DNA from: Acidimicrobiia bacterium | Lineage (GTDB): Bacteria; Actinomycetota; Acidimicrobiia; Acidimicrobiales; Bin134 | NCBI GenBank assembly: GCA_022822265.1 | Contig: JAJECA010000008.1 | Span: 186,001-250,000 of the forward strand | DNA length: 64,000 nt | Direction of reading: 5' to 3' | Shown: positions 2,481 through 20,176 of the stretch, one piece after another | How the letters are laid out: every line of letters starts with the position of its first letter | How positions within the stretch are numbered: the first letter of the stretch is position 1 | Program-made: the position numbers and the translations under genes | The notes under the pieces: generated by a model | Told to the model about the DNA's origin: nothing | Seen by the model: the letters and a program-made list of their open reading frames with translations, nothing else | Database searches by the model: none

Positions 2481-4776
2481 GGAGCACCTCCCATATCCGA
2501 TTTGGTGACAGCGGTGTGGCGACGTTGGTCCAGTCCACATCGGGCAGCGCGGCACAAACGGCGTTCACCACAGCAGCGAAGGCGCCGTTGGTCCCGCCCT
2601 CCCCCATGCCCTTCATTCCTCCCGGCGTGTAGGGACTGGGGATCTCCAAGTGCTCGATGCGGATGTCGGGCATCATCGCGCTGTCGGGAACGTGATAGTC
2701 GAGCAGTGTCGAACACTGCGGCTGACCCTGGCCGCTGTAGACGAATTCCTCGATCAGCGCGGCACCAAGGCCCTGGGCAACCCCGCCCTCGATCTGGCCT
2801 TCAACGATCGTCGGATTGACCATGGTGCCGCAGTCGCTCACCACTGCGTAGTCCTCGACTTCCACCAGTCCGGTGCCGGGATCGACAGCCACCCGGCAGG
2901 CGTGGGTGGCATAGGAGAAAGTGGGGCTGACCGGATCATAGGCGTAGGACGCCGCCAGACCGGGCTCGGTACCTTCGGGAAGCCGAAACCCCTGCCAGGC
3001 CCGCTGAGCCACCTCGGCGATGCTCACCCCGACGCCAGTACCGGCCACCCGAGCCTGACCCTCCTGAAGCTGGATGTCTGCCGGGCTAGCTTCGAGCATC
3101 TCAGCGGCGATGATTCTGAGCTTGTCGGCCACCCGCTGGGCGGCTACCACCGAAGCTCCGCCACCAACCGCGATCGAACGTGAGGCGGCCGTGCCATACG
3201 GGGAATACGGAGTGGTCTCGGTGTCTCCGTGGACCAGCTCGATCGACTCCAGGTCAACGCCCAACTCGTCGGCCACCAGTTGCGGGATCGTGGTTTCCAG
3301 ACCTTGACCGTGGGGGGATATGCCGGTGGCCACCCGAACCGAGCCGTCAGGTTCCAGGCGAATGGTGGCGCTCTCGAATCCGCCGATGCTGAGCCCGATG
3401 AACTCGTTCATGGTGCTCGGACCGATACCCGCCATCTGCACGTAGCAGCAATAGCCCACGCCGCGGAGCCGCCCGTCGTCGGGGGGCGCCGAGCCATCGC
3501 TGATGAGCCGTCGTGCCCGTTGCAGCGCCTCGGGGTAGTCGCCGTTGTCGTACTCGATCATGGTTCGTGTTCGATAAGGGAGCTCCTCGGGGGTGATCAT
3601 GTTCTGAAGCCGCAACTCCACCGGATCGCGCTGCAATGCCCCCGCCACCAGGTCAACCGCTCGTTCTCGAATGCACGCTGCCTGAGTCTGCCCGAAGCCG
3701 CGGTAAGCCCCGGTGGACATGGTGTTGGTGGCAACCACCTGGCCGTTGCAGCGCACGGCATCCCAGCGGTAGGGGCCGGGCACAACCCCGAACACCGTGA
3801 AGAGCGGCCCACCGCCGAAGACCGCGAATCGCCCCCCGGCGTTGCGTGTGCTCTCAACCCGCAGCCCCCGCAGGGTTCCGTCTTCGTCGAACGCCACCTC
3901 GATGTCGTGGATTTCGTCGCGGGCGTGGGTGGTGGCCAATAGCGACTCTGACCGGTCCTCAACCCACTTCACCGGGCGGCCCAGATCCAAGGCCGCTGCG
4001 GCCACGATGACCTCATCTTCGTACAGATGATCCTTGAGCCCGAAGCCTCCCCCCACGTCGGGGGCGACAACCCGCACTTGGCTTTGGGCCATGCCCAAGG
4101 TCTCGCACAGCGAATCGCGTACCGAGTGGGGCGCTTGCGTCGACGTGTACACGGTGAGCTTCCCCTGGGGTTGGGGCACCGCCACGATGCCCCGCCCTTC
4201 TATCGCCAGCCCGTGGATCCGTCCGATCCGCAGCCTGGTGCGAAGCGTGCGATCCGCATCCCCGAATATCGCGGTGGTGTGCTCCTCGGAATCACCCGCG
4301 TCAAAGGAAGCCAGCACATTGCTATCGAGCTCGGGGTACAGCAGGGTGGCATCGGCAGCCAGGGCCTGTTCGATCTCCAAAACCGGTGTGAGTTCATCGA
4401 TGTCTAGGGCGACCTTTTCTGCCTGGTCTTCGGCCTCGTATCGAGAGGCAGCTATTGCCACTCCGATCGGCTGGCCCACGTATCGAAGGATTGGGTCGAT
4501 CACCGGGGTGGAGCGCTGCTGTTGGCCTCCCAGAATCCACAAGACAGGCAGCTCTCCGGAAACAAGGGCGGCCAGTTGGTCGGGGCTGTACACCGTGCCC
4601 CGGTCGCAGCTCGCGGCGTCGAACCTGATGAGACGCCCGTGGGGCACCGGACTGCGAACGATGGCGGCATGAGCCATGTCCGGCAGCACGATGTCGTCGA
4701 GATAGCGTCCCGTCCCGCGCAAGAGATACTCGTCGTTGCGACGGGTCACTCGCTGGCCGACCAGTCGGGGCTTCAT
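2467..4776 (-). CDS. Molybdenum hydroxylase large subunit (xanthine dehydrogenase/CoxL family)
   Basis: A 769-residue molybdopterin-cytosine-dinucleotide-type large subunit, of the class that hydroxylates N-heterocycles or aldehydes with water. The N-terminal RNDEYLLRGTGRYLDDI is the usual a/b-hammerhead entry; GGGFGLKDHLYEDE follows; the loop over the Mo site reads AYRGFGQTQA, closer to the RGFG of xanthine dehydrogenases than to the AYRCSFR of CO dehydrogenase; and the catalytic glutamate is in GMGEGGTNGAF near the end. No FAD (CoxM) or 2Fe-2S (CoxS) subunit gene lies on either side, so its electron partners must be encoded elsewhere. It overlaps the ligase gene downstream and is divergent from the TrzN-type hydrolase. 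Purine or azaheterocycle hydroxylation is inferred from context. Confidence 0.88.
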   Translation of the reverse strand: MKPRLVGQRVTRRNDEYLLRGTGRYLDDIVLPDMAHAAIVRSPVPHGRLIRFDAASCDRGTVYSPDQLAALVSGELPVLWILGGQQQRSTPVIDPILRYVGQPIGVAIAASRYEAEDQAEKVALDIDELTPVLEIEQALAADATLLYPELDSNVLASFDAGDSEEHTTAIFGDADRTLRTRLRIGRIHGLAIEGRGIVAVPQPQGKLTVYTSTQAPHSVRDSLCETLGMAQSQVRVVAPDVGGGFGLKDHLYEDEVIVAAAALDLGRPVKWVEDRSESLLATTHARDEIHDIEVAFDEDGTLRGLRVESTRNAGGRFAVFGGGPLFTVFGVVPGPYRWDAVRCNGQVVATNTMSTGAYRGFGQTQAACIRERAVDLVAGALQRDPVELRLQNMITPEELPYRTRTMIEYDNGDYPEALQRARRLISDGSAPPDDGRLRGVGYCCYVQMAGIGPSTMNEFIGLSIGGFESATIRLEPDGSVRVATGISPHGQGLETTIPQLVADELGVDLESIELVHGDTETTPYSPYGTAASRSIAVGGGASVVAAQRVADKLRIIAAEMLEASPADIQLQEGQARVAGTGVGVSIAEVAQRAWQGFRLPEGTEPGLAASYAYDPVSPTFSYATHACRVAVDPGTGLVEVEDYAVVSDCGTMVNPTIVEGQIEGGVAQGLGAALIEEFVYSGQGQPQCSTLLDYHVPDSAMMPDIRIEHLEIPSPYTPGGMKGMGEGGTNGAFAAVVNAVCAALPDVDWTNVATPLSPNRIWEVLHDQT

Positions 4777-4860: not shown

Positions 4861-6258
4861 ATGCCCGACACTCTGATCCGCAATATCAGCCATCTCGTCA
4901 CCTTCGACGCCAACGACCGCGAGCTGGAGGGCGCAGACCTGTTGATGTCAGGGTCGCGTATTGCCGCGGTGGGCTACGACCTTGAGGTCGACGACTCCGT
5001 CGAGGTCATCGATGGCCGCGGCCTCCTCGTGCTCCCCGGGCTGATCAACGGGCACCAGCATCTCTACCAGGTGGGGCTGCGCTCGTTCGTGGAGCTTGAG
5101 CGGACACCCATTCACCCCTGGCTGACCGCGCTCCACGTGAAGACGCTGTACCTATGGCGCCAAGGGCACTACACGCCGGCCTCAGTCGGCGCTGTCGCCC
5201 GGGCGGGCATGGTGGAGTCGCTGCTCGGAGGGGTCACGACCGTCGCCGACCAGCACTACGTGTTCGTGGAGGGCAACACCGAGCCCTTCATCGAGGAGAT
5301 GATCCAAGGCGCCCTAGAGACCGGCATCCGGCTTCACGCCGGTCGAGGCTCCATGACCAAGGGCAAGCGGCACGGCGGTGTGGTCCCCGACATCGCATGC
5401 CAGAACATCGATGAGGTCTTGCGCCATTCTCAGGAGCTGTTGGATCGGTACCACGACCCCGATCCCCTTGCGCAGATCCGTATCGACCTGGCGCCCTGCG
5501 GCGTACACACCGACGAGCCGGAGATGTACCGGGAGTTCTCCGCGCTGGCGGCCGAATACCCAGAGGTCGGACTGCACACCCACCTATATGAGGTCATCGA
5601 CACGGGGTTCTGCGAAGAAACCTATGGCATCACACCGTGGCAATACCTTGGAGAGAACGGCTGGCACCACGACAGGGTGTGGCTGGCCCACATGGTTGAT
5701 CCCCCTCATGAGGAGATCCCCGAGTTTGCCGAGGCCGGAGTCGGCATTGTGCACCTGATCGCCCCAGATCTCCGCATGGGCTGGGGGCTGGCCCCCCTGC
5801 GGAAGTACCTCGATGCCGGATGCAAGGTCGGGTTCGGCACCACCGGGTCGGCCTCCAACGACGGCTGCAACCAGCTCGGCGATCTCCGCGTGGCCGCGCT
5901 AGCCCACCGGGATATGGATGTCTCACCGCAGAAGTGGCCCAGCGCCAGGGAGCTCCTGCACCTGGCCACTCGGGGCTCGGCCGCGTGTTTGGGCCGACAC
6001 GAGCTGGGGGTGATCGAGCCGGGCAAGGCGGCCGACATCGCGGCGTGGGACATGACCACCGTCGACCGTGTAGGGGTCCACGACGCGGTCATAGGACTAG
6101 TGCTAGGCGGACTCTCAGACCGGGCCTCTTTGGTGATGGTGGGCGGTGAGATTGTCGTACGAGACGGTCGCTGCACCACGGTGGACGAAACGGCCATCGC
6201 CGACGCGGCCCGCGAGGCCTACCCGGTACGCCCTTCCTCGCACCGGCGCCGCGGCTGA
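4861..6258 (+). CDS. TrzN-like amidohydrolase (s-triazine/8-oxoguanine deaminase group)
   Basis: A 465-residue subtype III amidohydrolase of the TrzN/AtzB/8-oxoguanine-deaminase group, acting on amino or chloro groups of nitrogen heterocycles. Seen: the HxH metal pair in NGHQHLYQ, the third His and catalytic Glu in LHTHLYE, AHMVDPP, and then HLIAPDLRMGWGLAPLRKYL before the last metal motif. That motif reads GFGTTGSASNDG: a threonine replaces the metal-ligating aspartate of almost all relatives. This replacement (Thr325) is the published hallmark of the atrazine chlorohydrolase TrzN, and the flanking blocks match TrzN as remembered. The native substrate is more likely a purine or other azaheterocycle. 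It starts at ATG just after GCAGGAG and is followed by the BMP importer in the same direction. Confidence 0.88.
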   Translation: MPDTLIRNISHLVTFDANDRELEGADLLMSGSRIAAVGYDLEVDDSVEVIDGRGLLVLPGLINGHQHLYQVGLRSFVELERTPIHPWLTALHVKTLYLWRQGHYTPASVGAVARAGMVESLLGGVTTVADQHYVFVEGNTEPFIEEMIQGALETGIRLHAGRGSMTKGKRHGGVVPDIACQNIDEVLRHSQELLDRYHDPDPLAQIRIDLAPCGVHTDEPEMYREFSALAAEYPEVGLHTHLYEVIDTGFCEETYGITPWQYLGENGWHHDRVWLAHMVDPPHEEIPEFAEAGVGIVHLIAPDLRMGWGLAPLRKYLDAGCKVGFGTTGSASNDGCNQLGDLRVAALAHRDMDVSPQKWPSARELLHLATRGSAACLGRHELGVIEPGKAADIAAWDMTTVDRVGVHDAVIGLVLGGLSDRASLVMVGGEIVVRDGRCTTVDETAIADAAREAYPVRPSSHRRRG

Positions 6259-6308: not shown

Positions 6309-6365
6309 TACTGTCAGATGCGCGCGTTGTCATACGACGGCGTCGCAAAAGGAGGGGGTATTTCC

Positions 6366-7436
6366 GTGAAACGGCGTTCTTCGATCTTGTTCAAGCTTCT
6401 TGCGCTGCTGATGGTGTTCGGCCTGGTAGCCGCAGCGTGCGGCAACGACGACGACTCCGAGGACGATGGCGCTCTCAAGGTTGCGCTGCTTCTTCCCGGC
6501 GTCCGAAACGACAACTCGTTCAGCCAAGCGGCCTACGAGGGTCTGCGCGACGCGGTGGCCGAAGACGGCAACGTCGAGACCGAGGTCCTCGAGGAGATAA
6601 TCGATCCCACCGACTCGCTTCCGGCGCTGCGCGATTTCGCCAGCCAGGGCTTCGACCTGATCCTGGGGCACGGCATCGAGTACGTGGATCCGATTCAACA
6701 GCTCTACGACGAGTTCCCCGACGTCGCCTTCTCCATGACCGGCGGCATCTTGGTTCCCGGCTCGGTCACCTCGAGCAACGTGGTGGACTGGCTGTACAAC
6801 GTTCAGGACATGGCCTATCCGAACGGGATTTTGGCTGCACAGGCAGTCATCGGCGACACCATCGGGATTGTCGGTGGTCCCGAGTTCGACTTCGTCAAGA
6901 CCATGCACCAGTCGTTCCGCGACGCGGCCCTGTCGGTGAACCCCGATCTGAACTTCCTTGAGGGCTTTGCCGGATCGTTCGTCGATGTCCAAGCTGCCGC
7001 CGAGGTCAGCCAGCAGCTGATCGACCAGGGTGCCGACTTCATCTACTGCTCCGGAGATGGAATCTGCATCGGAGCGGCTCAGACCGCATCAGCAGCCGGT
7101 ATCCCGATCTCCGTCGGTTTCGGCTCCCAAGAGCAGACCGCACCCGATGTCTATCTGGCGGCCACCGTCATCCGGATGAAGGATCTGTACCTGTCGTTCT
7201 TCGACCAGGTCCGCACCGGGACGTTCGGCACACCCGACGGCGAGGTGCATGCGGTGGGTGAAGAGGGATACGCCTTCTATCCGGGCGGTATCTTCAACGC
7301 TCAGGTAGAGGTCTTGCCGGTCAACATGGCAGCAACGGTGGACACCGCAGTGGGGCTCGACGAGCTGCAAGCCGCTCTCGACGAACTGGTCGCCTCCATC
7401 GAAGCCGGCGAGTTCTCGATCCCGTTCCCCGGCTAG
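6366..7436 (+). CDS. BMP-family ABC importer substrate-binding lipoprotein
   Basis: A 356-residue basic membrane protein (Med/PnrA)-family lipoprotein, the extracytoplasmic receptor of nucleoside-type ABC importers. A basic N-terminus, a hydrophobic stretch and Cys in LVAAACGND form a lipoprotein signal, followed by an acidic linker and the fold start VALLLPGVRNDNSFSQAAYE, with the family block DLILGHGIEY. The frame opens at 6318, but the GTG at 6366 is preferred: it sits 8-10 bases after a strong AAAGGAGGGG site and begins directly at the signal peptide. It is followed by its ATPase and two permeases with short or overlapping junctions. Relatives bind purine nucleosides; the neighbouring deaminases fit that, but the ligand is not proven by sequence. 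Confidence 0.9.
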   Translation: MKRRSSILFKLLALLMVFGLVAAACGNDDDSEDDGALKVALLLPGVRNDNSFSQAAYEGLRDAVAEDGNVETEVLEEIIDPTDSLPALRDFASQGFDLILGHGIEYVDPIQQLYDEFPDVAFSMTGGILVPGSVTSSNVVDWLYNVQDMAYPNGILAAQAVIGDTIGIVGGPEFDFVKTMHQSFRDAALSVNPDLNFLEGFAGSFVDVQAAAEVSQQLIDQGADFIYCSGDGICIGAAQTASAAGIPISVGFGSQEQTAPDVYLAATVIRMKDLYLSFFDQVRTGTFGTPDGEVHAVGEEGYAFYPGGIFNAQVEVLPVNMAATVDTAVGLDELQAALDELVASIEAGEFSIPFPG

Positions 7437-7443
7437 ACACTCG

Positions 7444-8994
7444 TTGACCTCCGAACCAGGCGCGGACCCGGCCACCGGCACGCCCCTCTCGGTAAGGGGC
7501 GTCTCCCGGCGGTTCGGGTCTGTCCAGGCGCTGGCCAACGTGGAATTCACACTGGAAGCCGGTGAGATTCACGCGCTCGTAGGTGAGAACGGAGCGGGCA
7601 AGTCCACCCTGGCCAAAATCGTCGCCGGATCGATCCGGTCTGATTCCGGTTCAATGAGCCTGTTCGGCCAGCCCTACCGGCCAACCTCCCGCCGGGAAGG
7701 CGCCGCCGCGGGCGTTGCCCACGTCCGGCAGCAGCTTTCGCTGGTACGAGGGCTCACCGTCGCCCAGAACCTCCAACTCGGACGACCGGGGGCACCCGCA
7801 ATCTTCAACGCCGCCTCGGCCCGGGCTGAGGTGGAGCGGTGGTCTGACGAGTTCTCCCTCAGCGTTCCGGCCGAGACCCTGGTAGACGACATGCCGTTGG
7901 CGGTGCGGCAGCAGGCCGAGATTCTCATCGCGGTGGCATGGGGAGCGCGGTTGCTGATTCTCGACGAGCCCAGCTCGGCACTGGGACCTCTCGAGACCAG
8001 GGCCCTCATCGCGCTGTGCCACCGCCTCCGATCTGAAGGCACCCCTATTCTCTACATCTCCCACCGACTGCCCGAGCTGGCCGAGTTGGCCGACCGGCTC
8101 ACGGTTCTCCGGTCCGGTCGGGTCATTGTCGAAGGGGCCGATGTGAGGGCCGCCGACCTGCGCGAGGTCGCCACGCTGATGATCGGGGACGTCTCTCTCC
8201 TCGAGGTGAATCGGCCTGAAATCGAGCGGGGCACATCTCGATTGACGGTAAACGACCTCTCCGTTTCATCAACGCAAGAGATCGGTTGCCACGGTCTCAA
8301 TTTCGAGGTGGCCGGTGGAGAGATTCTCGGTGTTGTCGGCATCGCCGGAAATGGCCAGGACTCGCTGGCCAAAGCCCTCACCGGACAAGCAAAACTGGCC
8401 AGCGGTCACGTCGTGGTCGATGGCGAGGACATCTCCGGCTCGGCTCGCCAGGCGATCGCCGCCGGCGTCGCCCACCTGCACGAAGACCGCTCCACCGGGC
8501 TGGCCGCCGCTTTCTCGGTGGCCGATAACGCCACCGCCCGCCATGTGAGGAGCGGTCGCTTCACCCGTTTCGGCGTCAGGTTGGCCGACAAGATCGCCCG
8601 CCATGCCGGGGAATTGGTCGAACGGTTCCAGGTCCGCCCTCCTGATCCTGCGGCAAGGGCGAGCTCGCTGTCGGGAGGGAATCAACAGAAGTTGATGGCC
8701 GCTCGGGAGCTTGAGAAAAACCCCACGGTTCTGGTGGCCCATGGCCCCACCAAGGGGCTCGATCCCGAGGCCGCCAAGGCCATGCGCGATCGCTGCTTCG
8801 CAGCCGCCCAGGCGGGTGGCGCCGTTGTGGTGATCTCGGCCGATCTTGACGAGGTGTCCGACCTGGCCCACCGGGTGGTCGTGCTCTACCGCGGGCGAGT
8901 GACCGATGCGTTCCCCATCGAGGACATGACATCTGAGCGACTGGGGGCGGCCATGGCCGGTTTGACCGAAACCATGGGGGCCACCAGTGGCTGA
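7444..8994 (+). CDS. BMP-type ABC importer ATPase (two nucleotide-binding domains)
   Basis: A 516-residue fused double ATPase that powers the nucleoside-type importer. The first domain has an intact Walker A (GENGAGKST) and a Walker B in LLILDEPSSAL, but its signature is degenerate (LAVRQQAE). The second has a degenerate Walker A (GIAGNGQDS), an intact LSGGNQQKL signature and a Walker B loop without glutamate (VAHGPTKGLD). This split of good and poor motifs is usual for the family. It starts at TTG, 7 bases after the lipoprotein stop, and its stop overlaps the first permease by 8 bases, so the four genes are surely one transcript. Confidence 0.9.
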   Translation: MTSEPGADPATGTPLSVRGVSRRFGSVQALANVEFTLEAGEIHALVGENGAGKSTLAKIVAGSIRSDSGSMSLFGQPYRPTSRREGAAAGVAHVRQQLSLVRGLTVAQNLQLGRPGAPAIFNAASARAEVERWSDEFSLSVPAETLVDDMPLAVRQQAEILIAVAWGARLLILDEPSSALGPLETRALIALCHRLRSEGTPILYISHRLPELAELADRLTVLRSGRVIVEGADVRAADLREVATLMIGDVSLLEVNRPEIERGTSRLTVNDLSVSSTQEIGCHGLNFEVAGGEILGVVGIAGNGQDSLAKALTGQAKLASGHVVVDGEDISGSARQAIAAGVAHLHEDRSTGLAAAFSVADNATARHVRSGRFTRFGVRLADKIARHAGELVERFQVRPPDPAARASSLSGGNQQKLMAARELEKNPTVLVAHGPTKGLDPEAAKAMRDRCFAAAQAGGAVVVISADLDEVSDLAHRVVVLYRGRVTDAFPIEDMTSERLGAAMAGLTETMGATSG

Positions 8995-10111
8995 CACCTT
9001 CCTCGGTGGCGACGTAGGCGACGCACCGCCTGAACCCCTCGAAGACGAGGGGCGCAGGCTCACCACGTCGCTGTCGACAAGCTGCCTCGCCGTCCTCATT
9101 GCCGTTGTCCTCGGCGGGCTGATCATGCTCATGTCCGGTGAGAACCCGCTGACCGCCTACACCGCCATGGTCGACGGCGCGTTCGGGTCGAAATTCGCCC
9201 TCGGAGAGACCCTCTCCCGGGCCGCACCGCTGGCCATCGTCGGGTATGGAACCGCGGTGGCGCTTCGCGCCGGTTTGATCACCATTGGCGCCCAAGGTCA
9301 GGTTGTGGCCGGCGCCATCGGTGCCCTGGTGACCGCCCAGTTCTTCGAGAGCGCACCTTCGGCTGTTGCCATTCCGGCTGCCGCCCTCGGTGGAGCCCTC
9401 TTCGGCATGGCGTGGGTGTTGATCCCCGCCCTGTTGCGGGCCCACTTCAGTGTCAACGAGATCCTCTCCACCCTGCTGTTCACCGAATTCGCCGCCCTGC
9501 TCATCGAATACCTCCTGAACAACCCGCTTAAGCCTCCGACCGCCATCACGCCACAGTCGGACCCCTACCCCGACAACGGCATTCTCGGACTGGTGATCGA
9601 TGGAACCCGCTTCCATGTCGGGGTGTTCGTCGCCGTGGCCATTGGACTGCTCTTCGTGTGGTGGGTTCGCTCTGATCGGGGGTTCAGCTACGACCTTTAC
9701 GGCGAGAACCCGAACCTGGCCCAGAGTCTGGGCATCTCCGGCAACCGCGTCATTGTCAACTCGCTTCTCATCTCCGGGGCCACCGCCGGTCTCGTCGGAT
9801 GGATACAGGCCGCAGGACTGCTCCAGCGGGTCTACGTGGAGATCGCATCCGACATCGGCTTCTTCGGCCTGGTCGTCGCCTTCCTCGGGGGCGCCACCCC
9901 GGGCGGTGTGCTGGTGGCCGCGCTGTTGTTCGGCGCCCTCCAGAGCGGCGGCTTGGCCATGCAGTCCTCGGAGGGCATCCCGGCCTCGCTCTCCGACATC
10001 ATTCAGGCGCTTCTACTGCTCGGGTTCTCCATCCGCTATGCGCCCCAGATCATCCGCCTCACCCGCGGGGTCATGGCCAACTTCACCCTCATCGGGAAGA
10101 GACGGAAATGA
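8987..10111 (+). CDS. BMP-type ABC importer permease 1
   Basis: A 374-residue inner-membrane permease of the BPD_transp_2 family (YufP-like), with about ten hydrophobic segments after a ~30-residue soluble N-terminus. Family features visible are NPLTAYTAMVDGAFGS near the start, the GYGTAVALRAGLITIGAQGQ loop, and NEILSTLLF before the middle helices. It starts at GTG inside the end of the ATPase gene and its stop overlaps the ATG of the second permease (ATGA), typical of tightly coupled subunits of one heterodimeric channel. The substrate is inferred from the family and its deaminase neighbours to be a nucleoside or nucleobase. Confidence 0.88.
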   Translation: MADTFLGGDVGDAPPEPLEDEGRRLTTSLSTSCLAVLIAVVLGGLIMLMSGENPLTAYTAMVDGAFGSKFALGETLSRAAPLAIVGYGTAVALRAGLITIGAQGQVVAGAIGALVTAQFFESAPSAVAIPAAALGGALFGMAWVLIPALLRAHFSVNEILSTLLFTEFAALLIEYLLNNPLKPPTAITPQSDPYPDNGILGLVIDGTRFHVGVFVAVAIGLLFVWWVRSDRGFSYDLYGENPNLAQSLGISGNRVIVNSLLISGATAGLVGWIQAAGLLQRVYVEIASDIGFFGLVVAFLGGATPGGVLVAALLFGALQSGGLAMQSSEGIPASLSDIIQALLLLGFSIRYAPQIIRLTRGVMANFTLIGKRRK

Positions 10112-11043
10112 GCCAGCTTCTCGAAGCCACGTTCTGGAGCGCCACAGTGGCCGGCGGGCTGCGCTTGGCCACCCCGTTGATCTACGCATCGATCGGCGAG
10201 ACGTTCGCCCAGCGAGCGGGGGTGCTGAATCTGGGACTCGAGGGCTACATGATCATCGGCGCCTTGACCTCCCTGTATGTGGCCGATCCGACCGTGGCTC
10301 CGCTCGGTTTTCTGGTGGGGGGCCTGGCCGGAATGGCGTTGGCCGCCTTGATGGTCTTGCTCTCAATTCGCCTCTTTGCCAACCAAGTTGTGGTCGGTTT
10401 CGGGCTGACAATCCTGGGCATCGGCACCACGGGGTACATCTTCCACGTCACCACCGATGTCGGCGGACGAGACCGCCAAGTCTCCCTGCCCTCGGAAATC
10501 GACATCCCGCTTCTGTCCGACATCCCGTGGCTAGGCGATGCCGTCTTCGGCCACAGCTGGTACACGTGGTTGTCGTTGGCGTTGGTTCTATTGGCCGGAT
10601 TCGTGGCCTCGCGAACCATCTTCGGGCTCGAGGTCAAAGCTGTTGGGGAGGATCCCGACGCCGCTGCCGCCAAGGGCGTCGACGTTTTGCGAATTCGCAC
10701 CCAGGCCACGCTGATCTCCGGATTCCTCGGCGGACTGGGCGGCGCTGCTCTGATGCTGGGCAGCGTGGGACGGTTCCAGCCCTACCTCACCGCCAACCGC
10801 GGGTTCATCGCTCTGATCGTGATCATCATGGCCAGTTGGAGCATCTGGGGGGCCGCGGTGGGCGCATTCGTCTTCGGGTTCTTCGAGGCCCTGGGCTTCA
10901 ACCTCAACAACGTGTTCGTGGACGTGCCCATTGAAGGCCTCAACGCCATTCCGTTCTTCGTGGCCCTTGTGATTCTCACGGTGAGCGCCCGTTGGGCCCG
11001 CATGCCCCGAGGGCTGGGAGAGAACTACGTCCCCACGGTTTGA
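10108..11043 (+). CDS. BMP-type ABC importer permease 2
   Basis: A 311-residue second permease (YufQ-like). The block ETFAQRAGVLNLGLEGYMI is the conserved loop that meets the ATPase in this family, and GVDVLRIRTQATLISGFLGG matches the second cytoplasmic loop. It starts at ATG within the preceding stop (ATGA overlap). Its 3' end runs 19 bases into the convergent adenosine-deaminase-family gene, so both stop codons lie inside the neighbour. A frame open from 9799 is only the upstream extension through permease 1 and is not the true start. Confidence 0.88.
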   Translation: MSQLLEATFWSATVAGGLRLATPLIYASIGETFAQRAGVLNLGLEGYMIIGALTSLYVADPTVAPLGFLVGGLAGMALAALMVLLSIRLFANQVVVGFGLTILGIGTTGYIFHVTTDVGGRDRQVSLPSEIDIPLLSDIPWLGDAVFGHSWYTWLSLALVLLAGFVASRTIFGLEVKAVGEDPDAAAAKGVDVLRIRTQATLISGFLGGLGGAALMLGSVGRFQPYLTANRGFIALIVIIMASWSIWGAAVGAFVFGFFEALGFNLNNVFVDVPIEGLNAIPFFVALVILTVSARWARMPRGLGENYVPTV

Positions 11044-12026
11044 TCTAGCAGCGCCCTGAGCGCCTGCTTGTCGGCGCTTGAGCAGAAGGCGGCGTCGATG
11101 GCTCGGTGCTGGGCAGCGACGAGATCGCCCAGACTCCAACCCAGGTGGTCGGCGGCCAGCTGAATCTCACTGCACAGCGAGATTCCCAGTGTCTCGGGGT
11201 CGTCGGTGTTGATGGTGAAGCGCACCCCCGCGTCGGCCAGATCTCTGATCGGATGTTCGTCCAGGCTGGAGTACAACAGGGTGCAGTTGGACGTCAGGCA
11301 GACATTCAGGGTGATGTCCCTCTTGAGGACCATGGCCAACACCTCGGGGTCCTCGATGCAGCGAACCCCGTGATCGACGCGGCTCACGCCTAGCAGTTCG
11401 ACGGCATCGCGAACGCCTTCGGCCCCCGAAGACTCGCCAGCGTGGGCGGTGCGCCCCAGCCCGATTCGGGCCGCGTAGTCATAGGCGGGAGCAAATCGAG
11501 GACCGGTGCGCCCAGCGGCCTCTTCGTTGCCGTCGATGGAGAGCCCGACGATTCGAGGCAGTCCTGCTCCCGAGATCCACTCCACCAGCTGTCGGGCTTC
11601 TTGTTCGGATTGCTGGCGGAGTATCGACGGCAGCAAGCGGAAATCACCCAGTCCGTCGACCTTGGCCCGATCGAGTCCTCGAGCACAGGCCGTGAAGAGC
11701 TCGCCAGTGGTCAGCCCCGACCAGTGGGTCGGGTTCACGATGACCTCCGCGTACACGATGCCCTGGTCATGGGCGTAGGAGGCGAAGTCGTAGGCCACCT
11801 GCTCGGCGGTGGGTTCGTCGCGGACGAGGCCGCACACCCAGTCGAGGGTTTCTAAGAAGTCGGCCAGGTTGTCCACCTCGAAGAGGCGGTCTACCGGTCG
11901 GGGCGGCTCCTCCCCGGCAATGGCAGCCAACTCGGCCACCCGTGCGGGGCGGAACGTGCCCTCCAGGTGGATGTGCAGCTCGATCTTGGGTACGGCTCTG
12001 ATTTGCTCTGAGCTGGGTACCGTCAT
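11025..12026 (-). CDS. Adenosine deaminase-family hydrolase
   Basis: A 333-residue member of the adenosine/adenine/aminodeoxyfutalosine deaminase family, zinc enzymes that hydrolyse the exocyclic amine of a purine. Metal and catalytic motifs in order: HxH in IELHIHLEGT (residues ~16-24), HAGESSGAEGV with the catalytic glutamate region, SRVDHGVRC, and the zinc aspartate in NTDDPETLG. The start at 12026 (MTVPSSEQ) overlaps the stop of the upstream flavoprotein (ATGA), so the longer frame to 12137 is rejected. Sequence alone does not separate adenosine from adenine or aminodeoxyfutalosine as substrate; the importer and adenine deaminases nearby support a purine. Confidence 0.87.
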   Translation of the reverse strand: MTVPSSEQIRAVPKIELHIHLEGTFRPARVAELAAIAGEEPPRPVDRLFEVDNLADFLETLDWVCGLVRDEPTAEQVAYDFASYAHDQGIVYAEVIVNPTHWSGLTTGELFTACARGLDRAKVDGLGDFRLLPSILRQQSEQEARQLVEWISGAGLPRIVGLSIDGNEEAAGRTGPRFAPAYDYAARIGLGRTAHAGESSGAEGVRDAVELLGVSRVDHGVRCIEDPEVLAMVLKRDITLNVCLTSNCTLLYSSLDEHPIRDLADAGVRFTINTDDPETLGISLCSEIQLAADHLGWSLGDLVAAQHRAIDAAFCSSADKQALRALLDQTVGT

Positions 12027-13261
12027 GTGTAGATGCCGGGGGGAGGATCCCAACCGGTGAGGACGTGGCGGCCGATCTCGGCGTGCTTCCACTCCACCGG
12101 ATCGTGCAGCGAGAGCGTGCGGACGTTTCTCCACCATCGGTCGAATCCCAGAGGACGCCGCACCGAGCGGGTGCCCATGAGCCCGAAGATGCCCTGCGCC
12201 GCGGCCAATCCGGCCCGGTCGGCGGCCGAGCGGGCGGCATAAATCGGGATGGCCAGATCGGTGCGGCTTATCTCCCCCCTCTCGAAGGCGTCAATCAGGC
12301 TCCCGCAGCGCATGGTCAGCTCATGGGCGGCGGCTAAGTCGGCTACCAACTCCCCCGTCGTCCTCTGCACCATGGGATCGTCGGCCGCGTTGTCCACCTC
12401 GGCTGAGGGCCATGGGCGGCTGTGCTCGTTTACGAACGGCACCGCGGCTTGTAGGGCACCGATGCCGATGCCCACATTCACCGCCGCGAAGCCGGCCTCA
12501 AACCGGACACCCGAATGGGGCAGCGGTGCCCTACCGGGGATGCTGGCATTCCACTCCGCACCCACATGGACGTTCTCAAAGCTGATGGACCCCGAATCGG
12601 TGGCCCGCTGACCGAGCGTGTCCCAATCGCGATGGACCGTCATTCCCGGCGTGTCCTTGGCTACCAAGTTCAACTGGAGCGCGAAGAACGGGTTCTCGGG
12701 GGTGAATCGTTCGGGGTTGACGCCCCATACCGCCACGTAGTCGGCCTCGGCGGACCCGGTGGTGTAGATCTTCTGGCCGTTGATCACATGGCTGCCGTCT
12801 TCTTGCTCAAGCGCCACCGTGGTGAACGGATCGGCCACTGTGCGCCCGGCCTCGGCCACAGCCAGGCCCAGCATGGCGTTGTCTTCGAGGATCAGTGCCG
12901 CGAGGCGGGGCTTCAGATCGTCGGAGCAGTAGCTGAAGATCTCCCGCACCAGCTCGTCGTGCACCTTGTAGACCTGGGCTACCGATGAGTCGGCTGCCGC
13001 CAGTCGAACTTGGGCATGCAGGCTGGCAGTGTGCGATGCCCCGATGCCGCCGAATTCCGCCGGCACGGCCAGCCCCAGGAATCCGCAGCCCTTGAGGGCC
13101 TCGACAGCTCGGGTGGGGTACCGGCCCTCATCGTCGTGCTCGGGAGCCAGCGGCGCCACCACGTCGGCGATCACCTCGTCCAGTGTCTCCAGGGCCTGCT
13201 CCTCGCGGTCGCCCAATACCGGTGGGGCAATCGCCGATCCCAACAACCGTGCCAATGTCAT
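12023..13261 (-). CDS. Acyl-CoA dehydrogenase-like flavoprotein (monooxygenase type)
   Basis: A 412-residue protein with the acyl-CoA dehydrogenase fold, closest in feel to the DszC/SfnB group of FMN-dependent monooxygenases. It shows LGLAVPAEFGGIGAS in the N-terminal helical domain, IYTTGSAEADYVAVWG in the beta domain, and ends in GTRSVRRPLGFDRWWRNVRTLSLHDPVEWKHAEIG, a tail characteristic of the monooxygenase branch; no Y-E-G-T/N catalytic-glutamate segment is seen. The start ATG at 13261 follows GAGGAGGAAACG directly; the 21 codons upstream are not needed. It is translationally coupled to the deaminase gene. Oxygenation of an N- or S-containing compound is possible; reduced flavin would have to come from a reductase elsewhere. 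Confidence 0.78.
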   Translation of the reverse strand: MTLARLLGSAIAPPVLGDREEQALETLDEVIADVVAPLAPEHDDEGRYPTRAVEALKGCGFLGLAVPAEFGGIGASHTASLHAQVRLAAADSSVAQVYKVHDELVREIFSYCSDDLKPRLAALILEDNAMLGLAVAEAGRTVADPFTTVALEQEDGSHVINGQKIYTTGSAEADYVAVWGVNPERFTPENPFFALQLNLVAKDTPGMTVHRDWDTLGQRATDSGSISFENVHVGAEWNASIPGRAPLPHSGVRFEAGFAAVNVGIGIGALQAAVPFVNEHSRPWPSAEVDNAADDPMVQRTTGELVADLAAAHELTMRCGSLIDAFERGEISRTDLAIPIYAARSAADRAGLAAAQGIFGLMGTRSVRRPLGFDRWWRNVRTLSLHDPVEWKHAEIGRHVLTGWDPPPGIYT

Positions 13262-13296
13262 CGTTTCCTCCTCGGTTTCATTTCCACCATCGTTCC

Positions 13297-15093
13297 CTAT
13301 CCGTTGTGAACGTGCTGAGGGCATCTACAGCACAACAGCACGGGTATGAACGACTGGGTGAAGGTGTCGATGAGACCCTTCTCGGTGAGGCCGTAGTCGG
13401 GAACACCGGCCAAACCAACGAAGGCCAGGATCATGTAGGGCGATGCAATCTCGCAACCCAGCGACGCCGCGGCACGGTTGGCCTCAATCGACTCGTCGTA
13501 CACCTGCTCCCACGGCTGGTCGCTCATGATGCCCCCCAAGGGGAGCGGAACGGTGGCCAACACCTCGCCGTCGGCCACGCACACATAGCCGCCGCCGATC
13601 TGTTGGAGGGTGCGGGCCGCGTGGGCCAAATCTTCATCGCTGGTGCCCACCACCACCAGATTCTGGTTCTCGCAGTTGCTGGTGATGCCCAGAGCGCCGC
13701 GGGTGAGCCCGAACCCCCGCACGAACCCTGTCGCTCGGGTGTCGGTGCCATGGTGGCGGTCGACCACCGTGATCTTGGCGATGTCGATGGCAGGATCGGG
13801 GATTACGTTGCCGTCCACTACTGGGAGTTCTGCCTCGATGGCCTGCTTGAAGTAGCCGTCGTACATCTCCATGGCTCTAACCACGGCCACCTCGTCGGGT
13901 GCGGCGTCGGCTTCCACCCGGAACATGTCGGGCCCGAAGTCACCGGGCAGATGAACCGTGTTGCGTATCCAATCCGGCATGGAGTCGGGATTGTCAAAGA
14001 CGGCCTCACCGTCTCGGCCGGCGACCTCTCCCCCCACGATGACCTGCGACGGCCGCACTTCGGCCAGATCGTCAAGGATCATCACGTCGGCCAGTCGGCT
14101 GGGGGTGATCGAGCCGAGCAGGTGATCGAGCCGGTAATGCTGCGCGGCGTTGAGCGAGGCCATCCGGTAGGCCTCTACAACCGGGACTCCCTCGGCAATA
14201 GCACTGCGCACGTGGTGGTCGATGTGCCCCTCGTCCCGGAGATCCTCCACGTGGCGGTCATCGGCGCAGAAACTCATATGGTCGAACCCTCCGGCCACTG
14301 CGCCCACATCCTCGAACACCAACGGCACGTTGTCGTTCATCGACCCCGACATCACCGTGATCATCACCCCGAGGCGAAGCCGGTCGATCACCTCGGCAGT
14401 GTTGAACGCGTTGTGATCGTCGCTGACCCCGCCGGCCAGGTAGGCCCACAGCGGCTCATCGGCGATTCGGGCGGTGTGGCCGGTGAGCCTTCGGCCCGCG
14501 GCGATAGCGGTGTGGGCCTTGCGGGCAGCGGATAGGTCCAGGTCGAACGGGTTGCTCTCGCCCAATGTGGCCACGTTGGGCGCGGTGAGACGCTCCAGCA
14601 CGTCTTCTTCGGGCACCACCGCTCCGCCCAGCTCCAGGTCGGGCACCCGGGGAATCTTGTGGGATATCTGCTGGAAGATGCGCATCGGCGTGGCCGTGGA
14701 GGCCATGGCGTCCACGCCCCGTGTCCCGACCACGTTGGCCAGGCAATTGGGATCGGCCAACACGGTGGTGGTGCCCCGGGGCACCACCAGTCGGGCCAAC
14801 TCCCCCGGGGTGAGCATGGTGTATTCGATGTGGAGATGGACGTCGATGAACGTCGGCGCCACAAACCGGCCCGACGCGTCGATTTCGACGGTGGCCTCCA
14901 GCCGCCCGGGGGGCGTCACCGCGGCGATGTGCTCCCCTACGATCAGAACGTCGCGCTCGATGAGCTCGCGATTGTGGAGCGCCAGCACAGTGCCGCCCCG
15001 AATGGCCAGGTCGGCCGGCTGGTCACCCCGGGCTGCGGCTTGAAGCCGCAGGATCTGCTCGGGGCTGGGAGCGAGGTCGGCGCCAATGAACAT
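13297..15093 (-). CDS. Adenine deaminase paralogue A (divergent metal-site motifs)
   Basis: A 598-residue protein of the adenine deaminase (Ade) family, aligned along its full length with the family layout. Compared with the remembered E. coli enzyme it keeps HLHIE, PRGTTTV, GH in TGHTARI, ADDR and the EGHIDHHVR block. Three conserved blocks differ: DPHE reads DPNC (about 14,738-14,749), the second-site CHES/SDHE reads DDHN, and the late SHDSHN reads SNCENQN. The ATG at 15093 has GGTGAG just upstream; GTG 15102 and TTG 15105 are alternatives. It lies 44 bases after the stop of paralogue B. It may be inactive alone, have another substrate, or work as a partner of B. Confidence 0.82.
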   Translation of the reverse strand: MFIGADLAPSPEQILRLQAAARGDQPADLAIRGGTVLALHNRELIERDVLIVGEHIAAVTPPGRLEATVEIDASGRFVAPTFIDVHLHIEYTMLTPGELARLVVPRGTTTVLADPNCLANVVGTRGVDAMASTATPMRIFQQISHKIPRVPDLELGGAVVPEEDVLERLTAPNVATLGESNPFDLDLSAARKAHTAIAAGRRLTGHTARIADEPLWAYLAGGVSDDHNAFNTAEVIDRLRLGVMITVMSGSMNDNVPLVFEDVGAVAGGFDHMSFCADDRHVEDLRDEGHIDHHVRSAIAEGVPVVEAYRMASLNAAQHYRLDHLLGSITPSRLADVMILDDLAEVRPSQVIVGGEVAGRDGEAVFDNPDSMPDWIRNTVHLPGDFGPDMFRVEADAAPDEVAVVRAMEMYDGYFKQAIEAELPVVDGNVIPDPAIDIAKITVVDRHHGTDTRATGFVRGFGLTRGALGITSNCENQNLVVVGTSDEDLAHAARTLQQIGGGYVCVADGEVLATVPLPLGGIMSDQPWEQVYDESIEANRAAASLGCEIASPYMILAFVGLAGVPDYGLTEKGLIDTFTQSFIPVLLCCRCPQHVHNG

Positions 15094-15136
15094 ATTGCTC
15101 ACCAAATTTCGATTTCGGGGACGACAGACAACCGGG

Positions 15137-16906
15137 TCACGACAACACGAGGTCGTCGACCAACTGCCCCAATGTCCCGTCCACGACTCCTATGTCGGTC
15201 ACATGCGGTCCCGTCAGGCAGGCCAAGCTCATCAGCATGACCGAGAACAGCGGCTGGGTTAGCGGCCCGGGCGGCAAGCCGATGGCTTGGGCCGCGGCGC
15301 CGACTTCTTCTTGCAGTCGGGCCACGTCGGCGGCGGGCAATGGCGACAAGATCCCGGCCACGGGGAGTTCGAGGATCGAGACCACCTCGCCGCTCTGCGC
15401 CACCGCCACTCCCCCTCCGGTGGCGATCACCGCGTTGGCCGCCACCGCCATGTCGGAGGGGTCTCGGCCGAACACCGACAGATTGTGGGTGTCGTGGCTG
15501 AGCGTGGTGGCGACCGCACCGGTCCAGTGGCCCCAGCCGCCGAGCAGCCCCGCTACCGGCGTGGCCGGAATCCGTCCGTGGCGGTGCACAACCACGTTCA
15601 GCAAGTACCCGTCGGGAATGGCGACCACCCCGCCGGCTACATCCACTTCGGCCTCGCCCCATTCCGTCATCACCACGCCCTCTACAACCTTCATGCGGTG
15701 GCGTCCGTCGGGGACGCCGGGCAGGCGGAACACGAAGTCGTCGGCCGTCATCGTCGGAAGCCTGATCGTGTCGAGCGGCGGATTCGACGGCGCCTCAGCG
15801 ACGGGTTCGAGCATCGCTCCCTTGTGGGCCACCCGACGACCGTCGAAGAACACATCGTCTACCGCGACCTCCTCCAACGACGACAGCACCACTATGTCGG
15901 CCCGGCGCCCAGCGGCCACCATGCCGAGGTCGGTGCGCTGGAGGCGATAGGCCGCGTTGTAGGTGGCAATTCTCATTGCTCTCACCGGTGCCAGGCCGTA
16001 GCGGATCAAGCGGCGCAGGAGATCGTCGATACCGCCTTCTTCCAGCAGCGTTGCGGCGAACAAATCGTCGGTGGCGGCGATGAGGTGGGTGGGAAACTCC
16101 GGCAGTTTGGCCAGCTCCTCCACCAGGAGCGGCAGCACGAAGTCGAAGGCCCCTCGCAGCTCGACGGTCATGCCGGCCCGAAGCTTCTCCATGGCGTCCA
16201 CGTGCGCGAAAACCTCGTGGTCGGAGAAGATGCCCGCGCTGAGATAGGCCTGAAGGGCCGGCCCGGTCAGGCCGGCGGCGTGCCCGCTGACCAACTTGCC
16301 GCTCTCATGGCCGGCAGCCACGATGCCCACCATGCGGGCGTCGCGGGTAAGTACTCCGCCCATGTCCATGACCTCGGCCAAGCCGCCCACTTCGTCCCAA
16401 GAGAGCATCTCGGCGATATCGGCCGCGTGCAGGTCGTGGCCCGATAGCTCCAAGCCGGGAAGGGGCGGAACGCACGAGGGGGCTTGCACCACAAACCGAA
16501 CGGGCAGCCCTCGGCTGGCGTCGACGGCGTAGCGGACTCCCTCAACCCCGGCAATGTTGGCCAGCTCATGGGGGTCGATGAACACGGTGGTGGTGCCGCG
16601 GGGACAGATGGCGGCGGCGTATTGACCGGGTGTGAGCATGGAGCTCTCGAAGTGCACGTGCATGTCGATGAATCCGGGGGCGATGTACCGGCCGGTGCAG
16701 TCAAACGAGTCGGCAGTGTCGGTGCGCGATCCCGCTGGGTGGATGCTGGCGACTACCGGACCGATGATTCCGACATCGGCTTGGTGCAGCTCTCCGGTTC
16801 CAACGTCGACCACAGTGCCGCCCGCCAGGATCAGGTCGAAGGGTTCGTTGCCGAGCGCGGCCCCCACCGCTCGTGCCCGGGTCTCCTCCTCAAGGTGGCT
16901 GTTCAT
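15137..16906 (-). CDS. Adenine deaminase paralogue B
   Basis: A 589-residue Ade-family protein converting adenine to hypoxanthine in characterised relatives, with a binuclear metal site. It keeps GFIDMHVHFESSMLTPG, PRGTTTVFIDPHELANI, GLAEVMDMGGVL (bridging Glu), GHAAGLTG, SDHEVF and SHDTHNLSVFGRD. Two blocks depart from the family: TDDR reads TDDL, and EGHID reads EEGGIDD, so the His next to the active site is Gly (near 16,030). Those are two of the blocks that paralogue A retains. ATG start at 16906; divergent from the 17031 amidohydrolase with a 124-base gap. Confidence 0.85.
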   Translation of the reverse strand: MNSHLEEETRARAVGAALGNEPFDLILAGGTVVDVGTGELHQADVGIIGPVVASIHPAGSRTDTADSFDCTGRYIAPGFIDMHVHFESSMLTPGQYAAAICPRGTTTVFIDPHELANIAGVEGVRYAVDASRGLPVRFVVQAPSCVPPLPGLELSGHDLHAADIAEMLSWDEVGGLAEVMDMGGVLTRDARMVGIVAAGHESGKLVSGHAAGLTGPALQAYLSAGIFSDHEVFAHVDAMEKLRAGMTVELRGAFDFVLPLLVEELAKLPEFPTHLIAATDDLFAATLLEEGGIDDLLRRLIRYGLAPVRAMRIATYNAAYRLQRTDLGMVAAGRRADIVVLSSLEEVAVDDVFFDGRRVAHKGAMLEPVAEAPSNPPLDTIRLPTMTADDFVFRLPGVPDGRHRMKVVEGVVMTEWGEAEVDVAGGVVAIPDGYLLNVVVHRHGRIPATPVAGLLGGWGHWTGAVATTLSHDTHNLSVFGRDPSDMAVAANAVIATGGGVAVAQSGEVVSILELPVAGILSPLPAADVARLQEEVGAAAQAIGLPPGPLTQPLFSVMLMSLACLTGPHVTDIGVVDGTLGQLVDDLVLS

Positions 16907-17030: not shown

Positions 17031-18401
17031 GTGACCAATTTCTTGTTGCGCGGCGGAACGGTGCTCCCGATGGAGGGCGCCAAAACGGTCTTCGATCCGG
17101 GCTCAGTGCTGGTGATCGACGGCAAGATCGAGTTGGTGGGCCGAGTGGACGATGTCGATCAGCACCCCGCGGCCTCAGATGTCGAGACAGTCGACGCCAC
17201 CGGGCACGCGGTGGTCCCGGGCTTTCACAACTGCCATCTGCATTCGGGCCTGCTGCGAGGCACCGCGGAATCTCTGGCCCTGTGGGAGTGGCTGGAAGAC
17301 CACATCGATCCGGCGCACCGGGCGCTCACGCCCGAGATAGCCGAGGCGGCCTCGTGGATGGCCTACACCGAAGGGCTGCGGGGCGGCACCATCTCGGTGC
17401 TGGACATGTGGCGGCACATGGAGGGCTCGGCCCGGGCCGCCGACGCGATCGGCATCCGGGCCACGTTGGCCCCCTACACCGCCGATCTGTACGACTACTT
17501 CGAGACCCTGGAGACCAACCGGCGGCTGCTGGAGACCCACCGGGTGGCCGCCGACGGCCGGGTGCGCACCTGGGTGGGCCTGGAGCACATCTTCTACTGC
17601 TCGCCCGACATGTTCCGGGGAGCGGCCGAGCTGGCCGAAGAGTTCGACACCGGCATCCACACCCATTCCTCGGAGTCGATCTGGGAAGTGCAGGAGTGCC
17701 TGCGCCAGTTCGGCCGCCGTCCCATCGAGGAGTTCTACAACCGGGGGATTCTGGGACCCCAGACCGTGATCGCCCACGGGGTGTGGCTCGACGACCGGGA
17801 GGTGCAGCTGATGGTGCAAACCGGCACCAGCGTTACCCACTGCCCTTGCTCCAACATGAAGCTGTCGTCGGGCCCGGCACGGATCGGCTTTTATCGCCAG
17901 CAGGGCATGACGGTGGCCTTGGGTACCGACGGAGAGAAGGAGAACAACAACCTCGACATGCTCGAGGAGATGAAGTTCGCGTCGCTACTACAGAAGGTGA
18001 GCACCCTCGATCCCACCACCGGCGATCCCTGGGACATCCTCGACATGGCCACGCTGTCGGGCGCTCGGGCACTCGGCCTCGACGACGTGACCGGCTCCCT
18101 GGAATCCGGCAAGGACGCCGACATCGTCACCGTCGCCCTGGGCGGGCTGCACTTCGTGCCGGTCATGCACGGCGACGACTTCAACATCGCCGCCCATCTG
18201 GTATTCACCGCGTCATCCCACGACGTGGCCAACGTCTGGGTGCAGGGACGACAGCTAGTGGCCGACGGCGACGTGACCTCAGTGGATGTCCGAGAGGTCG
18301 CCGAGCAGGCCCAGGCCGCGGCCGAGGAGCTGTTCGAGCGTCGCCGCCAGCTTCAAGGCGCCACCCCGAGCCCCGCCACAACGCTGGGAAAGAACGCCTA
18401 A
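17031..18401 (+). CDS. Amidohydrolase, cytosine/nucleoside deaminase-like (MtaD/SsnA group)
   Basis: A 456-residue subtype III amidohydrolase. The metal ligands are all present: HxH in NCHLHSGLLRG (~residues 68-77), His in GIHTHSSES, His in IAHGVW, and the aspartate in LGTDGEKENNNLD, unlike the threonine-containing TrzN-like protein at 4861. Substrates in this group include S-adenosylhomocysteine, methylthioadenosine, guanine, cytosine and s-triazines; the residues around TDGEKENNN differ from the TDGAASNN of SAH/MTA deaminases, so a precise substrate is not assigned. GTG start preceded by AAAGGCAGG. Its last 4 bases overlap the convergent dioxygenase gene. Confidence 0.83.
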   Translation: MTNFLLRGGTVLPMEGAKTVFDPGSVLVIDGKIELVGRVDDVDQHPAASDVETVDATGHAVVPGFHNCHLHSGLLRGTAESLALWEWLEDHIDPAHRALTPEIAEAASWMAYTEGLRGGTISVLDMWRHMEGSARAADAIGIRATLAPYTADLYDYFETLETNRRLLETHRVAADGRVRTWVGLEHIFYCSPDMFRGAAELAEEFDTGIHTHSSESIWEVQECLRQFGRRPIEEFYNRGILGPQTVIAHGVWLDDREVQLMVQTGTSVTHCPCSNMKLSSGPARIGFYRQQGMTVALGTDGEKENNNLDMLEEMKFASLLQKVSTLDPTTGDPWDILDMATLSGARALGLDDVTGSLESGKDADIVTVALGGLHFVPVMHGDDFNIAAHLVFTASSHDVANVWVQGRQLVADGDVTSVDVREVAEQAQAAAEELFERRRQLQGATPSPATTLGKNA

Positions 18402-19279
18402 GTCGGGAAAGGCCGGTGACCCCAAAAGCTCGGGCGGGAGATCTGGTAGGTGCCGGCATGGTCTGGGTCCTCGACCCGTAGCCCACCCCATCCGAACTCG
18501 ACCATCATCGAGTCGGGCGCTTGGCAATAGAAAGAGATCATCTCGTCGTTGGTGTGACGTCCCAAGCACATGCGGACAGGGACTCCCTGGTCGAGGCAGC
18601 GGTCTTGCGCCATGCCGACATCATCGATGGTCGCCGCTTCGACCATGATGTGCCCAAGCGGATGGGTCCGAGGCAGACCGGCGCTGAATCCCAGCGTGTG
18701 GTGACGCGGGTTGCAGCCCAAAAACGCCATCGATATCGCACCGACATGCCAGGTGTTCCGCAGGTGGAAGCCGAGCACGTCTCGGTAGAAGTTCAGGACC
18801 GGCTCGAGTTCATCGACCTTCAAAACGGCGTGTCCGAAGCCCATGTCTCCGGTCACGAAGCTCGAAACAAGGGGTGTCACCACTGGAATGTCGTTGCGAA
18901 TGGGGCCGTGGTAGAGCTCCAGCGGCGTGCCGGCGGGATCTTCGAATGAGACGTAGCCGGTCACGAGACGGGCGGCGGCCTCTTCGTCGGAGCCTGCTCT
19001 CACGTCGACACCCGCCCGCTCGAGGCGAGAGACCTGGGCGTGCAAGTCAGTGTCGTCGATGACTTCGAACCCGATGGCGTCGACTCCCGCGGTGTCAGCT
19101 TCGGCGACGACCAGGCGGTAGGGGTAGTTGTCCCATCGGAAATAGGCCGCGGTCGCGTCGGGGCCGGGTGTGGGCATGAAGCCGAGCACGTCGGTAGCGA
19201 ACCTGCGCCACTCGTCCAGGTGTGGACTGGCGAGCCGGACGTACCCAAGGGACAGGACAGCGCTCTTTCGTGTGCTCAT
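18398..19279 (-). CDS. Extradiol ring-cleavage dioxygenase (HsaC/BphC-like, VOC fold)
   Basis: A 293-residue type I extradiol dioxygenase with two vicinal-oxygen-chelate domains, cleaving a catechol next to its hydroxyls using Fe(II). The C-terminal, catalytic domain shows the three iron ligands in order: His in GFGHAVLKV, His in PLGHIMVEA, and Glu in SMMVEFGWGG; the Tyr/His region DEMISFYCQAP is also typical. Length matches BphC/HsaC (~290-300). It overlaps the hydrolase gene upstream by an ATGA junction, so ring cleavage is coupled to hydrolysis of the product. A steroid or biaryl catechol is likely from the family; which one is not visible. Confidence 0.86.
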   Translation of the reverse strand: MSTRKSAVLSLGYVRLASPHLDEWRRFATDVLGFMPTPGPDATAAYFRWDNYPYRLVVAEADTAGVDAIGFEVIDDTDLHAQVSRLERAGVDVRAGSDEEAAARLVTGYVSFEDPAGTPLELYHGPIRNDIPVVTPLVSSFVTGDMGFGHAVLKVDELEPVLNFYRDVLGFHLRNTWHVGAISMAFLGCNPRHHTLGFSAGLPRTHPLGHIMVEAATIDDVGMAQDRCLDQGVPVRMCLGRHTNDEMISFYCQAPDSMMVEFGWGGLRVEDPDHAGTYQISRPSFWGHRPFPT

Positions 19280-20157: not shown

Positions 20158-20176
20158 GGACTGAGAACCTCTGCGC

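Follow-up and report, generated by a model that had tools for sequence, protein, structure and literature searches.

A window of 64,000 nucleotides from an Acidimicrobiia bacterium (contig JAJECA010000008.1, positions 186,001 to 250,000 of the forward strand; coordinates without a locus label are positions within this window) was analysed with a focus on two neighbouring minus-strand genes with the adenine-deaminase fold, referred to as copy A and copy B. Copy A (13297..15105, minus strand; 602 residues) was placed by its open reading frame (ORF), Pfam matches, tree position and AlphaFold model in a divergent clade of this fold (the A clade), and copy B (15137..16906, minus strand; 589 residues) was assigned by homology to the Atu4426-type adenine deaminases. 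Both genes are full length and on the same strand, with a gap of 31 nt between their ORFs; the listed start of A is TTG, with possible alternative starts at GTG 15102 and ATG 15093. The domains Amidohydro_1 and Adenine_deam_C were found in both products above the Pfam cut-offs, and A and B were the only PF13382 matches among the seven candidates scored in this genome. The motifs of A read DPNC, DDHN, NCENQN, ADDR and EGHID, and those of B read DPHE, SDHE, SHDTHN, TDDL and EGGID. A preliminary description of the locus had reported two full-length, adjacent genes with these motif letters, which the ORFs and the alignment confirmed. Sequence identity was about 30% between A and B, 48% between B and the Agrobacterium protein Atu4426, and 30–39% between A and the canonical rows. 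As B is closer to an Agrobacterium protein than to its neighbour, and shares only about 30% identity with it, a recent tandem duplication was ruled out. Among the papers listed by literature searches, none showed anything on A-like proteins, the A–B pair or the A clade.

The best solved relative of B was Agrobacterium adenine deaminase 2, Atu4426 (PDB 3NQB), with 566 bits in a phmmer search, compared with 226 bits for A against the same entry. Atu4426 is reported to deaminate unmethylated adenine, with structures solved and a mechanism proposed (PMC12133300, cited here and below from the part of its text that was available). In the printed alignment this enzyme reads CTDDVF and GGGLDD, so that its motifs are TDDV and GGGLD. 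These are the states that the preliminary description had called losses in B, namely of the Arg of TDDR, at TDDL (residues 279–282; 16061..16072, minus strand), and of the His of EGHID, at EGGID (residues 290–294; 16025..16039, minus strand). Since Atu4426 itself has states of this kind, no residue known to be required is missing from B. Across the 20 tabulated positions B equals Atu4426 at 19, the remaining one being Leu for Val. The B clade comprises 12 rows, 3NQB included, at a support of 100/100, and all 12 retain DPHE at its His and Glu positions, as well as the bridging Glu, the His residues of the barrel, the Arg, the two Asp residues and the two His residues of HDxHN. The last residue of TDDx is Leu in ten and Val in two, and the GHID position is Gly throughout. 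Ratios of non-synonymous to synonymous substitution rates (dN/dS, NG86) between B and five relatives ranged from 0.053 to 0.196. Against TIGR01178, B scored 369.2 and A 371.5 bits, both below the cut-off of 472.5, and the residues of Atu4426 likewise fell below it, with 364.9 bits, so this cut-off does not separate active from inactive proteins. With residue states like those of Atu4426, there is no sign that B needs A; B is predicted to be an Atu4426-type adenine deaminase, complete alone, that would convert adenine to hypoxanthine and ammonia.

Phylogenetic trees were computed from 63 rows, and in a second version from 59 rows after removal of four, including L052, which has an internal stop; YerA, an N6-methyladenine deaminase considered below, was not among the rows. 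One branch set the 17 A-type rows apart from all others and a second did so for the 12 B-type rows, each with a support of 100/100. An arrangement with A and B held as one clade was not rejected (approximately unbiased test, p 0.18; 59 rows), so a deep sister relation is possible; the branches leading to A and to type 3 are both long, and the grouping of the two could be spurious. Residues H90, H92, E183, H210, H231, D282 and D283 of A are each present in 17 of the 17 A-clade rows, and none of the six metal-ligand positions, one of which is the general-base Asp, varies within the clade down to 53% identity. Having these positions together with PF13382, A is predicted to be a two-metal amidohydrolase with an AdeC C-terminal domain. 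An AlphaFold2 model of A, built from 38 rows, gave a mean pLDDT of 93.8 and a pTM of 0.93, and its top Foldseek match was 3nqb (TM score 0.88, root-mean-square deviation 2.7, 31% identity).

Around this metal site the pocket of A is remodelled. DPHE is replaced by DPNC (residues 118–121; 14743..14754, minus strand), with the His changed to Asn in 16 rows of the clade and to Val in one, and the Glu changed to Cys in 15 and to Ala in two. In place of SHDSHN, A has NCENQN (residues 477–482; 13660..13677, minus strand), the first His of HDSHN being Cys in all 17 rows and the second Gln in 15 and Met in two. The changes that had been described in A at DPHE and SHDSHN are thus real, whereas at DDHN only the Glu of SDHE has changed, to Asn in all 17 rows, and A keeps the His. 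DPHE and HDSHN probably form the accessory third metal site of Atu4426. A further difference, absent from the preliminary description, is Met252 of A (14350..14352, minus strand), which stands for an adenine-contacting Arg (Arg260 of Atu4426, Arg252 of YerA). For Atu4426, residue numbers were taken as chain position minus 3, which fits the His94 and Arg260 given in the available text of PMC12133300; there, docking models are reported in which this Arg is one of the residues forming hydrogen bonds with the adenine ring. The family mostly carries this Arg, within LRG or LREGS; all 18 canonical rows that were counted retain it, as do all 12 B-clade rows. In the A clade the position is Met in 16 rows and Gln in one; the Arg, DPHE and HDxHN were found in none of its 17 rows, and N232 and C478 are new invariant residues, each in 17 of 17.

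We conclude that B is probably a self-sufficient Atu4426-type adenine deaminase and A a separate, likewise self-sufficient two-metal hydrolase, most likely acting on a modified purine or related heterocycle and not on adenine. Divergence to a new substrate, one of two outcomes suggested in the preliminary description, is supported for A, by its remodelled but conserved pocket on an intact metal site, and not for the Atu4426-like B. Loss of DPHE, HDSHN and the Arg could also be expected of a paralogue that has no catalytic activity and is maintained for a regulatory or structural role. The six ligand positions, with the general-base Asp, would then hardly be the same in all 17 rows, which go down to 53% identity, and in four genomes no family member other than A was found; we consider such a role decidedly improbable. 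The dN/dS values of A against six relatives (0.058–0.178, NG86) indicate purifying selection and ruled out a pseudogene. An unchanged activity of A on adenine, with the base recognized by the pocket in a different way, would fit the shared fold and metal site, the purine genes nearby and the four genomes in which A is the only AdeC-family gene found. Retention of the Arg in every canonical and B-clade row and in no A row speaks against this, as does the presence of B, which would already fill the adenine role in the window genome, and we regard it as quite unlikely.

The occurrence of the two types was surveyed in 148 genomes of the order, with up to 8 candidates scored per genome. A match to A at E 1e-20 was obtained in 20 of the 148, with A-type genes, as judged by motif and identity, in G000, G056 and G134, and a fragment in G098. 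B-type genes were found in G000, G015, G094 and G140, and both types only in G000. At the same threshold of E 1e-20, nothing matched A in three genomes congeneric with the window (G035, G085 and G119), which makes its distribution patchy even among members of one genus. Fifteen A-clade loci were obtained by scanning genome contigs, and their record titles name Acidimicrobiia or Acidimicrobiales (six), "bacterium" (three), "marine group bacterium Sva0996" (one) and, with one each, Actinomycetota, Actinomycetales, Microbacterium, Gammaproteobacteria (L040, a 3.1-kb contig of a metagenome-assembled genome) and Mangrovimicrobium sediminis (L041; Halieaceae). Two of the handles, G531 and G056, appear to be one genome. 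In a sample of 396 genomes of the phylum, with up to 3 candidates scored per genome, only G000 and G134 scored as A-clade (>1100 bits; next 438), and the next eight matches showed canonical motifs on reading. Among 369 genomes of the class of G535, none but G535 itself passed 1e-120, and on plasmid records all 388 relatives were below 60% identity, with at most ~39% among the 60 rows listed.

These distributions bear on the other suggested outcome, a heteromeric enzyme in which each copy supplies the motifs that the other is without. In its favour, the genes are adjacent on one strand, 31 nt apart, and a B-type gene lies beside A in 6 of the 15 other A-carrying genomes (G524–G527, G529 and G530). 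In the remaining nine, the completeness of which is not stated, no B-type gene was found, and in four of the 15 (G528, G532, G536 and G537; completeness likewise not stated) A was the sole PF13382 gene found. Conversely, three of the four B-carrying genomes of the order sample (G015, G094 and G140) had no A-type gene. The two types thus commonly occur alone, which the preliminary description had itself named as a refutation, and their expected co-occurrence is not strict. Moreover, B agrees at 19 of the 20 positions with an enzyme for which adenine deamination is reported; the alignment suggests that all six ligands lie within the barrel of one chain; and YerA is reported to be monomeric, with the authors' data not shown (PMC12133300, available part). 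We find a heteromer with shared or complementary sites scarcely credible, and an obligate one very unlikely.

An apparently clean loss of B with A kept, found in L034 (G528), argues further against the heteromer. In this locus, the stretches matched to the AmH gene and to A are ~156 nt apart. Both in the window and in L031, the sequence between them aligns with the region upstream of B, the B start and roughly the first ten codons of B; the slices of L032 and L033 are short, and only the first 38 nt of the L034 stretch aligned with them. The stretch reads in frame into A, giving a 615-residue ORF that starts with MQSHLGEET, compared with MNSHLEEET in B. An apparent B remnant, comprising the start and about ten codons, is thereby fused in frame to A (L034:9959-10020, by alignment). 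The simplest reading of this sequence is that B was deleted and that A now stands behind the start of B, which would make L034 a natural control.

Two other clades were observed in the family. The third (L006, L007, L008, L012, L056, L057 and L065, matched ORFs) keeps DPHE and HDSHN, and in seven of seven rows the bridging Glu is replaced by Gly (GGDINP), one barrel His by Gln (GH to GQ) and the Arg by Thr, which is nearly the reverse of the changes in A; in L007 (G094), its gene adjoins a B-type gene in divergent orientation. The fourth (L024, L037:15766-17523, L044:18938-20695, L081 and the plasmid locus L084) has AFDQ or GLDE for DPHE and SPDDEN or APDDNN for HDSHN, with the Arg kept in five of five rows, and its gene lies ~4 kb (L037) and ~7 kb (L044) from an A-clade gene. 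Identification of another clade of the family as the YerA group was rejected, as the matches to YerA (PDB 9jql; 54 and 45 bits) were too weak to name it.

On the minus strand, the gene order is B, A, a DszC/SfnB-like flavoprotein with the acyl-CoA-dehydrogenase fold (12023..13324), directly downstream of A, and an adenosine-deaminase-family protein (11025..12137), the most widely recurrent neighbour of A. Around them lie, on the plus strand, a BMP-type (nucleoside-like) ATP-binding cassette (ABC) transporter with binding protein, ATPase and two permeases (6318..11043), an 8-oxoguanine-deaminase-like amidohydrolase (4861..6258) and an amidohydrolase related to methylthioadenosine, S-adenosylhomocysteine and 5'-deoxyadenosine deaminases (17031..18401), and, on the minus strand, a molybdopterin-binding large subunit of the xanthine dehydrogenase/CO dehydrogenase family (2467..4776). 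The neighbourhood would therefore be a purine or nucleoside catabolic cluster. Neighbours were counted over 17 A loci (window, L030–L044 and L086). The adenosine-deaminase-family gene was present in 11 of the 14 informative loci (window, L030–L034, L036, L041–L043 and L086), the flanks of L035, L039 and L040 being too short to judge. The flavoprotein follows A at nine of the 17 loci (window, L030–L034, L036, L040 and L041; 53–97% identity), and a different acyl-CoA-dehydrogenase-type protein takes its place in L042 and L043. At E 1e-40, it was found in 10 of 19 genome handles.

Two side observations were made in the surroundings of these genes. At 1191-2555, a glutamine-synthetase-like gene overlaps the molybdenum hydroxylase gene; the two best PDB matches of its product were glutamate-methylamine ligases (best 204 bits), one match being 7CQL, a glutamate-methylamine ligase according to the available text of PMC7948447. 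A function as gamma-glutamylmethylamide synthetase is not claimed, since true glutamine synthetases score close behind (182 bits). At 18398-24749, HsaA/HsaC/HsaD-like ring-cleavage genes, a TauD-type dioxygenase and a sulfatase adjoin the cluster. L032 and L033 match this stretch at 98–100% in the corresponding position, and no match was obtained in L030, L031, L034 or L035, so it looks like a variable block.

In the mechanism that we propose, A would retain the catalytic metal pair and the general-base Asp and, with the DPHE/HDSHN residues and the adenine-contacting Arg lost, would direct the same two-metal water attack at another substrate. It would most likely take an amine or amide group off a modified purine or related heterocycle, a compound that the nucleoside-type ABC transporter may bring in, and would probably work beside the adenosine-deaminase-family enzyme and, in many hosts, the DszC/SfnB-like flavin monooxygenase. 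We infer the activity, the substrate class and the joint pathway of A, with a modified purine as the best guess for its substrate. Several points weigh against this proposal. The adenosine-deaminase-like neighbour was unmatched at three of the 14 informative loci (L037, L038 and L044). For the flavoprotein, 9 of the 19 genome handles gave no match at E 1e-40; they represent 8 of 18 distinct genomes, of which one carries just a fragment of A, and A can thus occur in the absence of this partner. The specificity residues reported for YerA are not present in A, and a non-hydrolytic or still adenine-directed activity of A is possible.

The A clade is a distinct, conserved and uncharacterized subfamily, and not a new kind of system. 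Only tentatively do we entertain the further idea that it represents a new activity, in which a two-metal hydrolase, a DszC/SfnB-like monooxygenase and an adenosine-deaminase-family enzyme would strip substituents from a modified purine or amino-heterocycle, encoded by a gene set carried between Actinomycetota and Gammaproteobacteria. Domain-based naming would call the A clade adenine deaminase, and the recurrent partner genes of A could reveal its substrate. More generally, the motif sites in question vary between subfamilies of this fold, and adenine deamination is reported for one of the deviating subfamilies, which guards against wrongly inferring a split active site from motifs read against a composite consensus.

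Among known systems, Atu4426 (PDB 3NQB, 3T81 and 3T8L) belongs to the clade of B, which it resembles at the level of identity and site agreement given above. With A, it shares the fold (TM score 0.88) and the six catalytic metal-ligand positions, but differs in DPHE to DPNC, HDSHN to CENQN, Arg260 to Met and SDHE to DDHN, at about 32% identity. Canonical AdeC proteins (TIGR01178; L011 and L048) have the same domains as A, with the CxDDR and GHI-type motifs in common, and exceed the TIGR01178 cut-off, whereas A and B fall below it. The closest known counterparts of the flavoprotein beside A are the DszC, methanesulfinate monooxygenase and SfnB-type flavoproteins. Its top PDB matches, DszC and methanesulfinate monooxygenase, gave 168 and 135 bits, and it scores below the NCBIfam cut-offs for SfnB and DszC.

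YerA (Bsu06560) and Bh0637 are described as N6-methyladenine (-adenosine) deaminases of subgroup 2 of cog1001 in the available part of PMC13296781, and YerA is reported to act on N6-methyladenine and N6-methyladenosine (PMC12133300). A could be a YerA-type deaminase of these compounds, i.e. a known activity in a new clade. By alignment, A keeps the ligands of the two catalytic metals, with positions 90, 92, 183, 210, 231 and 283 against the predicted YerA ligands 87, 89, 179, 210, 231 and 283 (PMC12133300). According to the available part of the same report, YerA does not conserve the residues for the third metal of Atu4426, and these also appear to be gone from A, as far as the residues concerned can be deduced. 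The C-terminal part of A matches YerA (9jql) with 44 bits, B giving no match at E 0.001; the gene setting is one of purines and nucleosides; and the regional glutamine-synthetase-like gene has a glutamate-methylamine ligase as its best PDB match. The 9jql match is, however, weak, rows of another family clade match about equally (54 and 45 bits), and the glutamine-synthetase-like protein is nearly as close to true glutamine synthetases (182 versus 204 bits). Moreover, Phe91 and Arg252 of YerA correspond to Glu94 and Met252 of A, and lacking these specificity residues, A is not simply a YerA. We therefore hold a YerA-type activity to be rather unlikely and favour the self-sufficient hydrolase proposed above; by analogy, YerA is nonetheless the nearest precedent for a change of the kind seen in A.

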